Of a DNA stretch of 64,000 nucleotides, positions 6,882 to 53,934 are shown piece after piece (position 1 is the first letter of the stretch; each line of letters opens with the position of its first letter). The stretch is from Clostridia bacterium (GTDB lineage: Bacteria; Bacillota; Clostridia; UMGS1840; HGM11507), in assembly GCA_017414505.1 (NCBI GenBank), contig JAFQLQ010000002.1, positions 1 to 64,000 on the forward strand. Direction: 5' to 3'. The notes beneath the pieces were generated by a model. That model was not told the origin of the DNA, did not search any database, and saw nothing but the letters and a program-made list of their open reading frames with translations. Both the position numbers and the translations under genes were made by a program.

Positions 6882-7806
6882 AGTTAAACATTTCTGTAGA
6901 TAAATATCTTTCTCCTGTATCCGGTAAAAGTGCTACTATAATTTTTCCTTTGTTTTCAGGTCTTTTTGCTATTTCAGCTGCGGCATATAAAGCTGCTCCG
7001 GAAGATATACCGACAAGCAATCCTTCTGTCTGAGCAATTTTTTTACCTGTTTTCATTGCATCTTCATCAGAGACCGGAAAAATTTCATCATATATTTCTG
7101 TATCAAGCGTATCCGGAATAAATCCTGCTCCGATTCCCTGAATTTTATGAGCACCGGAGGTTCCCTTGGATAAAACAGGGGAAGAGGCAGGTTCTACTGC
7201 TATTATCTTTATATCGGGATTTTTGGATTTTAAATATTTTCCAACTCCAGAAACTGTACCTCCTGTACCTGCACCTGCTACAAAAATATCTATTTTACCG
7301 TCGGTATCTTCCCAAATTTCCGGACCGGTCGTTTTTATATGTGCTTTTGGATTTGCAGGATTAACAAACTGACCGGGAATAAAACTGTTTTCAATGTCAT
7401 TTGAAAGCTCTTTCGCTTTATCAATTGCTCCCTGCATTCCTTTTACACCATTGGTAAGAATAATTTCGGCTCCGTAGGCTTTGAGAAGATTTCGTCTTTC
7501 TACACTCATGGTTTCAGGCATGGTAAGAATAACTTTATATCCTTTTGAAGCCGCAATGGCAGCAAGTCCTATACCTGTATTTCCGCTTGTAGGTTCAATA
7601 ATTACAGAATCCGGTTTAAGCAATCCTTTTTCTTCGGCATCCAATATTATTTCAGCCGCCACACGGTCTTTTACACTTCCGGCAGGATTGAAATATTCCA
7701 ATTTAGCTAAAAAAATAGCTGTGATATTATTTTCTTTTTTGAAATTATTTAATTCAACAAGTGGTGTTTTTCCAATTAATTCTGTTATTGATTTTGCATA
7801 TTTCAC
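6880..7806 (-). CDS. cysK: Cysteine synthase A (O-acetylserine sulfhydrylase)
   Basis: A 308-residue PLP enzyme that makes cysteine from O-acetylserine and sulfide in the cytoplasm. The PLP lysine is Lys46 in [11 protein letters not shown]. The substrate loop [11 protein letters not shown], a glycine-rich phosphate-binding loop ([12 protein letters not shown]) and GISSGAA are all intact, and the length is normal for CysK. The ATG has AAAAGGAG upstream on the minus strand. It is monocistronic, with its own promoter at 7831-7858 and the shared terminator downstream. No cysE lies next to it. CysM or a related PLP lyase is the alternative, but the motif set and length favour CysK. Confidence 0.95.
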
Positions 7807-50007: not shown

Positions 50008-51369
50008 ATGGCAACAAAAAAATATGAGCTTGATATGACAAAAGGTCCTATTTTTAAACAACTGCTTACTTTTACAATACCACTTATTCTTTCTGGTATA
50101 CTGCAACTGCTTTACAATGCAGCAGATATAGTGGTTGTAGGAAATTTTTCGGGAATTACAGCTCTTGCGGCAGTTGGTTCTACCGGATCCCTTATTAATC
50201 TTATTACAGGTCTTTTTATGGGACTTTCATTGGGTGTAAGCGTTGTTGCATCTAATTATTACGGTGGAAAAAATTATAACGGTGTAAGCAGAGTTTTGCA
50301 TACTGCTGTAACAATCAGCGTGATTGGCGGTATAGTTATTGGTGCTATTGGCATTATTATTGCTCCTGCCGTTTTAAAATTAATGGGTAGTCCTTTTGAC
50401 GTTTTGCCGCAGGCGGCTTTATATATGAGAATTTATTTTTGCGGAATGCCGTTTTTTATGCTGTATAACTTTGGAAGTGCGGTATTAAGAGCTCTTGGTG
50501 ATACAAAAAGACCGTTATATTTCCTTGCAGTTTCGGGTATTGTAAATGTTGTTTTAAATCTGTTTTTCGTAATTTTATTTAAGATGGGAGTTGCAGGAGT
50601 TGCACTTGCAACAATAATTGCACAGGCTATTTCAGCTTGTTTTGTTGTGAATTGTTTAATGAAATCTGACGGATTTTATAAACTTGAACTGAAAAAACTA
50701 AAGATTCACAGAGTTGAATTGAAAAAAATGATTATAATTGGCTTACCGGCGGGAATTCAAGGTTCAATATTTTCAATTTCCAATGTTTTGATTCAGTCAT
50801 CAATAAATTCTTTTGGTTCAGACACAATGGCAGGAAATGCGGCCGCGGCAAATATAGAAGGATTTATTTATGTTGCTATGAACTGTATATATCAGTCTGC
50901 ACTTACTTTTATAGGTCAGAATTTCGGTGCTAAAGAAGAAAAAAGAATTACGCAAGGTATGCTTACTTGTGTAGCTATGGTTGTAGTTATAGGTTTAGCA
51001 CTTGGAATTTTAGCTCTTATATTTTCGTCATCTCTGATTAAAATTTATAACAGTGATCCGGATGTTATTAAATTAGGAATGCTAAGAACTAAAATTATTG
51101 CTCCTACATATTTTATTTGCGGAATTATGGAGGTTTTAGTTGGCGGAATAAGAGGTTTGGGAAATTCAATTTTACCAATGATAATTTCTATACTTGGTGT
51201 TTGCGGAATCAGAATTGTATGGCTGTATACAATTTTTGTATGGGATCCGTCTTTAACAACGCTATACACATCTTATCCGGTTAGCTGGTTTGTAACAGCT
51301 GCTATTGATTTAATATGCTTTGTAATGATAAAGAAAAAATTAAAAACCACATATTTTAATAAAATATAA
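50008..51369 (+). CDS. MATE family efflux transporter
   Basis: A 453-residue membrane protein with 12 predicted helices. MTKGPIFKQLLTFTIPLILSG at the start and AADIVVVGNFSG soon after are typical of NorM/DinF-like MATE exporters, which use a cation gradient to extrude drugs or metabolites. The ATG at 50008 has AAGGGGAG about 12 bases upstream; the open frame back to 49930 runs through a hairpin and is not used. Its stop codon touches an 83-base copy of part of the flippase gene (51369-51451). Confidence 0.93.
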   Translation: MATKKYELDMTKGPIFKQLLTFTIPLILSGILQLLYNAADIVVVGNFSGITALAAVGSTGSLINLITGLFMGLSLGVSVVASNYYGGKNYNGVSRVLHTAVTISVIGGIVIGAIGIIIAPAVLKLMGSPFDVLPQAALYMRIYFCGMPFFMLYNFGSAVLRALGDTKRPLYFLAVSGIVNVVLNLFFVILFKMGVAGVALATIIAQAISACFVVNCLMKSDGFYKLELKKLKIHRVELKKMIIIGLPAGIQGSIFSISNVLIQSSINSFGSDTMAGNAAAANIEGFIYVAMNCIYQSALTFIGQNFGAKEEKRITQGMLTCVAMVVVIGLALGILALIFSSSLIKIYNSDPDVIKLGMLRTKIIAPTYFICGIMEVLVGGIRGLGNSILPMIISILGVCGIRIVWLYTIFVWDPSLTTLYTSYPVSWFVTAAIDLICFVMIKKKLKTTYFNKI

Positions 51370-51451
51370 ATGGAAACCTGTTAAAAATATGTTTATAGGC
51401 GGAATTATAAAAATTATTTGTAACTATATTTTAATTGGTATTCCGGAAATA
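51369..51451 (+). repeat. 83-base inverted repeat, copy of an internal flippase segment
   Basis: Every base matches the reverse complement of 52621-52703, which encodes about residues 411-438 of the flippase (EWKPVKNMFIGG to IGIPEI). In this copy the same reading frame meets TAA directly after the repeat. A further 6 bases match after a 2-base offset. Confidence 0.95.
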
Positions 51452-51468
51452 TAAACATTTCTAATATT

Positions 51469-51502
51469 AAAAGCTCCATAATATCAGTATTAAGGAGCTT
51501 TT
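51469..51502. terminator. Terminator between MATE gene and mazG
   Basis: AAAAGCTCC (51469-51477) pairs with GGAGCTTTT (51494-51502), with an inner TAAT/ATTA extension and a T run. A-rich on the left and T-rich on the right, so usable from both strands. Confidence 0.75.
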
Positions 51503-51537
51503 TCATATATATTATTTTTATTTTTAAAACTTCCCCA

Positions 51538-51567
51538 TTTTATACAAAATTTTTATTTTGTATAAAA
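51538..51567. repeat. 13-base hairpin in the MATE-mazG gap
   Basis: TTTTATACAAAAT (51538-51550) and its exact reverse complement (51555-51567) flank a TTTT loop. AT-rich; role unknown, perhaps a second terminator or processing site. A third, imperfect hairpin is at 51585-51620, just past the mazG stop. Confidence 0.5.
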
Positions 51568-51625
51568 ATATATAGAATTTCAAGAAGGGAGAATAATGTT
51601 AAAATACTTTATTCCCCCTTGATTT

Positions 51626-52291
51626 TTAGAGCTTTTCAATGATACTATCAAGCAAATTATTGATTTCTATTTCCGGTAAAATATCATAATCAATTGATAA
51701 ACTTACTAATTGCAGAAAAAGTTCTGTTATTTTTTCCTGCGGATTGTTGCTGTTTATAATTATATTTTTTAAATTATCATCTTCTGCAATTAAATTTTTC
51801 TTTCCTTGTTTATTTAATTTTTTTATTATTTTCTGAGCTCTTAATATTACCGGTAATGCTTTTGATATTTTTTCAACTGTTTCTTTATCGTTTTTTGCTC
51901 CTTGTTCTTTCTTTTTAAGCTCCTCCCAATTGGATAGAATTTCATCAACTGAATCAACCTTTGTATCAGAAAAAACGTGTGGATGTCTGTAAATCATTTT
52001 TTTAGAAACACAGTTAATTACATCATTTATATCGTAGCTTCCTTCTTCACGACCAATCTGGGCGTTCAGAATAATCTGTAACAAAACATCACCTAATTCA
52101 TCAGCTTGTTTTTCAAAATCTTTCTGCTCAACGGCTTCAATGTATTCATAGCATTCTTCAATAAGGTATTTATTAATTGATTCATGAGTTTGAGCTTTAT
52201 CCCAGTCACAACCATTTTCTCCGCGAAGTTCAGCTATGATATTAAGTAAATCATCAAAACTGTAATTTTCTTTAGTAATCAACTTAAACAT
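51626..52291 (-). CDS. mazG: MazG-family nucleoside triphosphate pyrophosphohydrolase
   Basis: A 221-residue house-cleaning enzyme that hydrolyses non-canonical NTPs to NMP and pyrophosphate. The N-terminal domain shows RGENGCDWDKAQTHESI and the metal-binding pair EECYEYIEAV and ADELGDVLLQ. KKMIYRHPHVF is the classic MazG signature. It is shorter than two-domain MazG proteins (about 260 residues), so the second domain is reduced. Its start overlaps the end of the flippase gene by 13 bases, indicating one transcript. Lies inside the segment bounded by the 83-base inverted repeats. Confidence 0.93.
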   Translation of the reverse strand: MFKLITKENYSFDDLLNIIAELRGENGCDWDKAQTHESINKYLIEECYEYIEAVEQKDFEKQADELGDVLLQIILNAQIGREEGSYDINDVINCVSKKMIYRHPHVFSDTKVDSVDEILSNWEELKKKEQGAKNDKETVEKISKALPVILRAQKIIKKLNKQGKKNLIAEDDNLKNIIINSNNPQEKITELFLQLVSLSIDYDILPEIEINNLLDSIIEKL

Positions 52292-53934
52292 CTCCCGAAT
52301 ATTTTTGTAATTATTTTGCTTTTTGGAAGCATTTCGATGTCTTCCCTTTTAAATCCTTTTAATAACAGCATTGTTACCAAATATAGTATAACTGCTGTGC
52401 CAACTGATATAACCGTACTTGTAAAGTTTCCATACTTTACACTTGTAAAACTATACAGATATACAGAACCGACTGACATGATTATAACTGATATTGCAGG
52501 TTTAACAAATGCAGCCATTTTATCATAGTTCACATTGATTTTTTTATTTATGGAATACAGATTTAGACCTGTAATTGTCAGATAACATAACGTGGTGCTT
52601 ATAGGAGCACCCATAATGTTTATTTCCGGAATACCAATTAAAATATAGTTACAAATAATTTTTATAATTCCGCCTATAAACATATTTTTAACAGGTTTCC
52701 ATTCATTATCCAGCGCCTGTAAAATAGCATTTGTTACCATTGTTAAACACACAAGGCTGATTGCAAGACCAAGTAAAGTAAGTAATTTTGTTGCATCTGT
52801 GTTATTACAAATCAAACGGATTAACGGATTTTTAGGCAAATCACTATGCATAGGCATAACGAAATCTGCATTAGGATATAAAAGCTTAAGAATCGGCTTT
52901 GCCATAACAGCCATACCGATTCCTGCAGGAAAAGCAAGCTGCCATGTAAATCTTATTCCTGTTGCTATTATTTTTCCTGCTGTTTCTTTTTGCTTGTTTA
53001 CCAATGCATTGGTAATTGCAGGAACAATGCTTATACTGAGTCCGACAATTACACTTGCAGGCAGATTAAACAAGGTAATTGCATAACCCGAATAATATCC
53101 GAACATTATTTCTGTTTCTTCCTGCATATACCCTATTGACTGCAATCTTCTTAAAACCATTGCGGTATCGATGACTGAAGTCATTGAAAAAACGCACGAG
53201 CCGAGTGTTATTGGTACCGCAATTTTAACAAGTTCCTTTATAATAGAATTTCTTTCGCTGTTTAAAATTATTAATTTGTTATTTTCTTTTTTATTGTTTA
53301 TTCTGTGATAAATTATAAGAAAAATTGCGCTGATACACGCACCCGTTGTAACACCGAGAATACCTCCCGATGCAGCTATTACATAACCGTAAGGCACAAG
53401 TAATACAGCGAAAGATAATCCGCATATAAGCTTGAATAAAGCTTCAAATAATTCACTTACTGCGGTAGGAATCATATTTTGCATTCCCTGATAATACCCT
53501 CTGTACACAGAAGATACAGAAACAAAAAACAAACTTGGTGCAAGACAGATTATTGCGGGATAATAATTTGCGTATCCAAAGCTGTTACTGAACAATTTTG
53601 CCCCTGATATAAGAATTACAGTTCCTGCAATGCCAATAACTAATAATACTTTTAAAGATATAGTATATATTTTTTTTACTTCTTTTAAATTCCCTGACGC
53701 ACGCCTTTCAGAAATCATTTTAGATATTGCAACCGGTAATCCGGCAGTTGCAATTACAAAAAATACAGTATAAATGCTGTACGCAGTTTGATATACAGCA
53801 ATGCCCTGCGTTCCTATTATGTTAGCAAGAGGTAATCTGAAAAGCATTCCGATTATTTTAACAAAAACGTGTGAAAAGGCAATAATTGCAGCTCCAAGAA
53901 GAAAATTAGTACTATTCTTGCTTGAATTATTCAT
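52279..53934 (-). CDS. Polysaccharide/lipid flippase, SpoVB-MurJ-like
   Basis: A 551-residue membrane protein with about 14 helices in the MOP/polysaccharide-export fold. LLGAAIIAFSHVFVKIIGML and FRLPLANIIGTQG at the N-terminus resemble SpoVB and YtgP/MurJ-type flippases that move lipid-linked cell-wall precursors. A spore-cortex role (SpoVB) is possible given that the organism appears to sporulate, but a vegetative MurJ role fits equally well. Residues 411-438 are duplicated behind the MATE gene. Own promoter at 53962-53990; mazG is co-transcribed downstream. Confidence 0.9.
   Translation of the reverse strand: MNNSSKNSTNFLLGAAIIAFSHVFVKIIGMLFRLPLANIIGTQGIAVYQTAYSIYTVFFVIATAGLPVAISKMISERRASGNLKEVKKIYTISLKVLLVIGIAGTVILISGAKLFSNSFGYANYYPAIICLAPSLFFVSVSSVYRGYYQGMQNMIPTAVSELFEALFKLICGLSFAVLLVPYGYVIAASGGILGVTTGACISAIFLIIYHRINNKKENNKLIILNSERNSIIKELVKIAVPITLGSCVFSMTSVIDTAMVLRRLQSIGYMQEETEIMFGYYSGYAITLFNLPASVIVGLSISIVPAITNALVNKQKETAGKIIATGIRFTWQLAFPAGIGMAVMAKPILKLLYPNADFVMPMHSDLPKNPLIRLICNNTDATKLLTLLGLAISLVCLTMVTNAILQALDNEWKPVKNMFIGGIIKIICNYILIGIPEINIMGAPISTTLCYLTITGLNLYSINKKINVNYDKMAAFVKPAISVIIMSVGSVYLYSFTSVKYGNFTSTVISVGTAVILYLVTMLLLKGFKREDIEMLPKSKIITKIFGRCLS
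52621..52703 (-). repeat. 83-base inverted repeat, flippase-internal copy
   Basis: Exact reverse complement of 51369-51451. It is in-frame coding sequence within the flippase gene, so this is the parent copy. The two copies are 1169 bases apart in opposite orientation. Confidence 0.95.

Follow-up and report, generated by a model that had tools for sequence, protein, structure and literature searches.

A perfect 83-base inverted repeat joining a flippase gene to the end of a MATE gene in a Clostridia bacterium, probably formed by local templated insertion

The locus and its inverted repeat

Three genes with intact reading frames lie together in the window, the 64-kb stretch of DNA that was analysed, with a MATE transporter gene on the plus strand facing a flippase gene and mazG on the minus strand. 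The flippase matches the profile Polysacc_synt (E 2e-23) and also TIGR02900 (E 4e-73), although it stays under the TIGR02900 cut-off. The start of mazG and the stop of the flippase gene overlap by 13 bases (52279-52291, minus strand), which suggests that both proteins are translated from one transcript. The features of the locus are the following:

50008 to 51369, plus strand: MATE family efflux transporter, 453 aa, whose stop codon touches arm 1
51369 to 51451, plus strand: arm 1, an ectopic 83-base copy of flippase codons 411-438, with the flippase sense strand on the plus strand
51469 to 51507, plus strand: terminator-like hairpin with a T-run behind arm 1, which folds on the minus strand too
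51626 to 52291, minus strand: mazG, nucleotide pyrophosphohydrolase, 221 aa, within the segment that inversion would turn
52279 to 53934, minus strand: SpoVB/MurJ-like flippase, 551 aa, whose end overlaps the start of mazG
52621 to 52703, minus strand: arm 2, the native source within the flippase coding sequence

The two arms are exact reverse complements at all 83 of 83 positions, as the first-pass annotation of this DNA had reported. They have 23% G+C, lie 1.25 kb apart and enclose a spacer of 1169 bases. Given the composition of the window, the longest inverted repeat expected by chance is about 16 nt, and the expectation for a pair this long in 64 kb is about 1e-38. When one mismatch is permitted the repeat grows to 86 nt (51366-51451 and 52621-52706), and once gaps are allowed it reaches 51366-51459 and 52615-52706, at the cost of one mismatch and one 2-bp gap, so that the identity has no clean stop at 83 bases. 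Arm 2 is ordinary coding sequence for flippase residues 411-438, and arm 1, whose first base is the final one of the MATE stop codon (TAA, 51367-51369), ends the copied flippase frame with a TAA of its own, both in agreement with the earlier description. Arm 1 lies between this stop codon and the terminator-like hairpin, which forms a strong fold near 51469-51502, though a terminator scanner made no terminator call there. Besides this hairpin region (51465-51510), a second one is found at 51580-51640.

The genome is a draft of 53 contigs, 88.4% complete, and its assembly was judged from the contigs alone, which leaves some room for the earlier suggestion of an assembly fault, that is, for arm 1 being absent from the real genome. 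In three pairs of contig ends the shared sequence is exactly 141 bases long, from which a final assembly k of 141 is probable. Since an 83-base arm is shorter than this, the k-mers across each arm also carry its flanks (58 flanking bases). A fault would moreover demand two independent false joins, one on the left to the MATE gene and one on the right to the terminator, and this explanation is considered very unlikely.

Ancestry and rarity of the copies

The stretch of the flippase that corresponds to arm 2 aligns gap-free in the flippases of family relatives, and two genomes of the same family (G001 and G003) keep the gene order seen here, with mnmG and mreB followed by the oppositely oriented flippase and mazG genes. 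By these comparisons, arm 2 is the native copy and the present orientation of the segment the ancestral one, and arm 1 is a later addition. A same-genus relative was not found among the collections searched, and the empty ancestral site was therefore not seen; a flippase search of the genome_contigs collection for nearer relatives gave a best match of 36% identity. Members of the family, among which the relatives searched included no genome of the same genus, have other sequence after mazG. At that place several relatives (L057, L058, L059, L043 and L045) carry a small gene whose sequence suggests an HU-type DNA-binding protein, while the end of mazG here faces the MATE gene instead. The idea that the insertion itself made the MATE stop codon is unsupported, since the G025 orthologue of the MATE protein stops near the residue at which the protein described here ends; the orthologue in G041 has a somewhat longer tail.

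The rarity of such copies was surveyed in the window and 20 other contig stretches of the same genome, together about 406 kb or some 17% of the assembly. With the exception of the repeats of contig C5, all other inverted pairs of at least 18 nt within 10 kb were short hairpins or palindromes of 23 nt at most, and no second inverted copy of coding sequence was present in these 406 kb. No comparable copy of coding sequence was found in 288 kb of other loci either, and this absence fits a one-off event. The repeat consists of two arms only, no third copy being found in its own genome; searches for exact 32-base matches returned none from genome_contigs, where the genome of the window may itself be absent, and none from viral_contigs.

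Two other inverted repeats were considered as copies of coding segments and set aside, as they look like dispersed multi-copy or intergenic repeats. The first, on contig C5 (L027), is a 134-base sequence in inverted copies at 1-134 and 7332-7465, which is also found at the start of contigs C38, C30 and C11 and, 89% alike over 88 bases, within C47; it is a repeat dispersed in multiple copies, at which the assembly breaks. The second, in the relative G025 (L061, 419-477 and 2791-2849), is a near-identical, intergenic inverted pair of about 59 bases of the CCTCCCTTTACACAAGGGAGG type, and looks like a dispersed mini-repeat.

Junctions of arm 1 and its probable origin

The sequence around arm 1 holds three further short features:

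51362 to 51370, plus strand: left-hand member of the 9-bp direct repeat AAATATAAA on either side of arm 1
51447 to 51455, plus strand: right copy of AAATATAAA, flanking arm 1
51451 to 51459, plus strand: ATAAACATT, which recurs on the minus strand at the edge of arm 2 and is presumed to be the template-switch microhomology

Past the right end of arm 1, an offset of 2 bp is followed by about 9 more bases, ATAAACATT, that again resemble the source, which indicates that target and source shared microhomology at this point. This microhomology is present at both sites for the right junction; at the left one, source and target have only about two bases in common. In simulations with the composition of the intergenic region, the chance of a 9-bp flanking repeat was about 0.009 and that of the resumed similarity about 0.004, both being crude estimates that share bases and were framed after looking at the locus. 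Another reading of both features is that 91 bases were copied and 2 bp were inserted later.

Arm 1 is an inverted copy of nearby native sequence, inserted elsewhere with its source left intact. Of the origins first proposed for it, a recent copy is the one that gains support, and a single templated insertion accounts for the anatomy better than an inversion switch does. On this anatomy, arm 1 is considered, with a probability of about three in four, to be a recent and local templated insertion made by an inverted template switch, and probably neutral. A 3' end engaged in replication or repair near the MATE stop codon would have jumped, by way of a short microhomology, to the flippase gene at a distance of 1.25 kb, and would have copied about 83 bases from this inverted template. 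A return to a position a few bases behind the starting point would then have duplicated AAATATAAA, leaving an 83-bp inverted repeat in non-coding DNA with MATE, mazG and flippase undamaged. Before the insertion, the empty site would be expected to have read AATAAAATATAAACATTTC.

Inverted template switches at microhomologies of 3-30 bp are described in starving E. coli, and some inversions have been suggested to form within one replication fork, for which a dimension of 1.5 kb is quoted in this species (PMC3161906); the distance between the two arms falls within that dimension. The present case resembles microhomology-mediated break-induced replication (MMBIR) and inverted template switching (PMC3161906, PMC8421209) in its nearby inverted copy, its two junctions, its microhomology and its 1.25 kb distance. 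It differs from the template-switch events of E. coli, whose embedded duplications measure 5-43 kb, in that only 83 bases were copied and the ancestral site has not been seen.

The lack of a function proposed here for arm 1 may be weighed against its retention for a role of its own, for instance in a 3' untranslated region of the MATE transcript that pairs with flippase or mazG RNA. Its position ahead of the terminator hairpin, in what is presumed to be the 3' untranslated region of MATE, would suit such a role. Nevertheless, arm 1 as transcribed with MATE reads in the flippase sense, which makes pairing with flippase mRNA impossible, a flippase-mazG transcript would have to cross two hairpins (51580-51640 and 51465-51510) before reaching arm 1, and the fold of arm 1 is not unusual (z -1.3). 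A function of this kind is most improbable.

Inversion of the segment between the arms

Inverted repeats that flank a segment, as here, allow a further reading, in which recombination between the arms inverts 51452-52620, truncating the flippase and moving mazG behind the MATE gene, so that the locus acts as a phase switch. The inversion product foreseen by the first-pass annotation was reproduced in silico: the flippase is cut to 438 residues and closed by TAA, the terminator hairpin follows and would end the truncated transcript, and mazG with the 3' end of the flippase gene comes to lie on the plus strand behind the MATE gene. Besides this exact geometry there is precedent in the spnIII locus of Streptococcus pneumoniae, where an 85-bp inverted repeat recombines unchanged without recA or creX (PMC6620402), and arm length alone is therefore no objection to switching. 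The likeness to spnIII hsdS shuffling lies in the near-equal repeat length, for which spnIII demonstrates recombination independent of RecA, but spnIII swaps domains between alternative genes, whereas inversion here would only truncate one.

Against a switch stands the assembly itself, which has one orientation only. Matches to integrases or resolvases (PF00589, PF00239) are absent from C44, the contig of this locus, and seven are found elsewhere in the genome, on C8, C11, C20, C23, C31 and C47; as spnIII illustrates, such an enzyme is not strictly required. The repeat is an ordinary coding segment, lacking exact matches in genome_contigs as described above, and it does not recur as a recombination site at other loci; neither conservation of the repeat nor a recognisable recombination site was found. 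The flipped state would also break a conserved flippase, and hence looks like a loss-of-function by-product. Invertons (Jiang 2019 and Chanin 2024, listed in PMC11868660) likewise have inverted repeats around a segment whose inversion alters a gene product, with one arm inside the gene and the other outside; the locus differs from these invertons in that its repeat is a piece of coding sequence, its contig has no recombinase and one orientation is seen.

Of the flippase on/off switch proposed at first, then, the geometry and the precedent stand, whereas a second orientation, a recombinase on the contig, a conserved repeat and a recombination site were not seen. Rare flipping of the segment is plausible, but an evolved on/off switch is not supported, and the phase-switch explanation as a whole is unlikely. 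A fresh, recombinase-free switch, in which a chance template-switch insertion provided the flippase-mazG operon with an 83-bp repeat that flips at a measurable rate, is quite unlikely.

If arm 1 is only a templated insertion, the locus would offer a clean bacterial case of a mutation type reported mostly from eukaryotes, and would show that coding sequence can give rise to inverted repeats. If the segment flips as well, the locus would illustrate how such a switch may begin with no recombinase dedicated to it, and, were the fresh switch true, the birth of a phase-variable locus would be observable.
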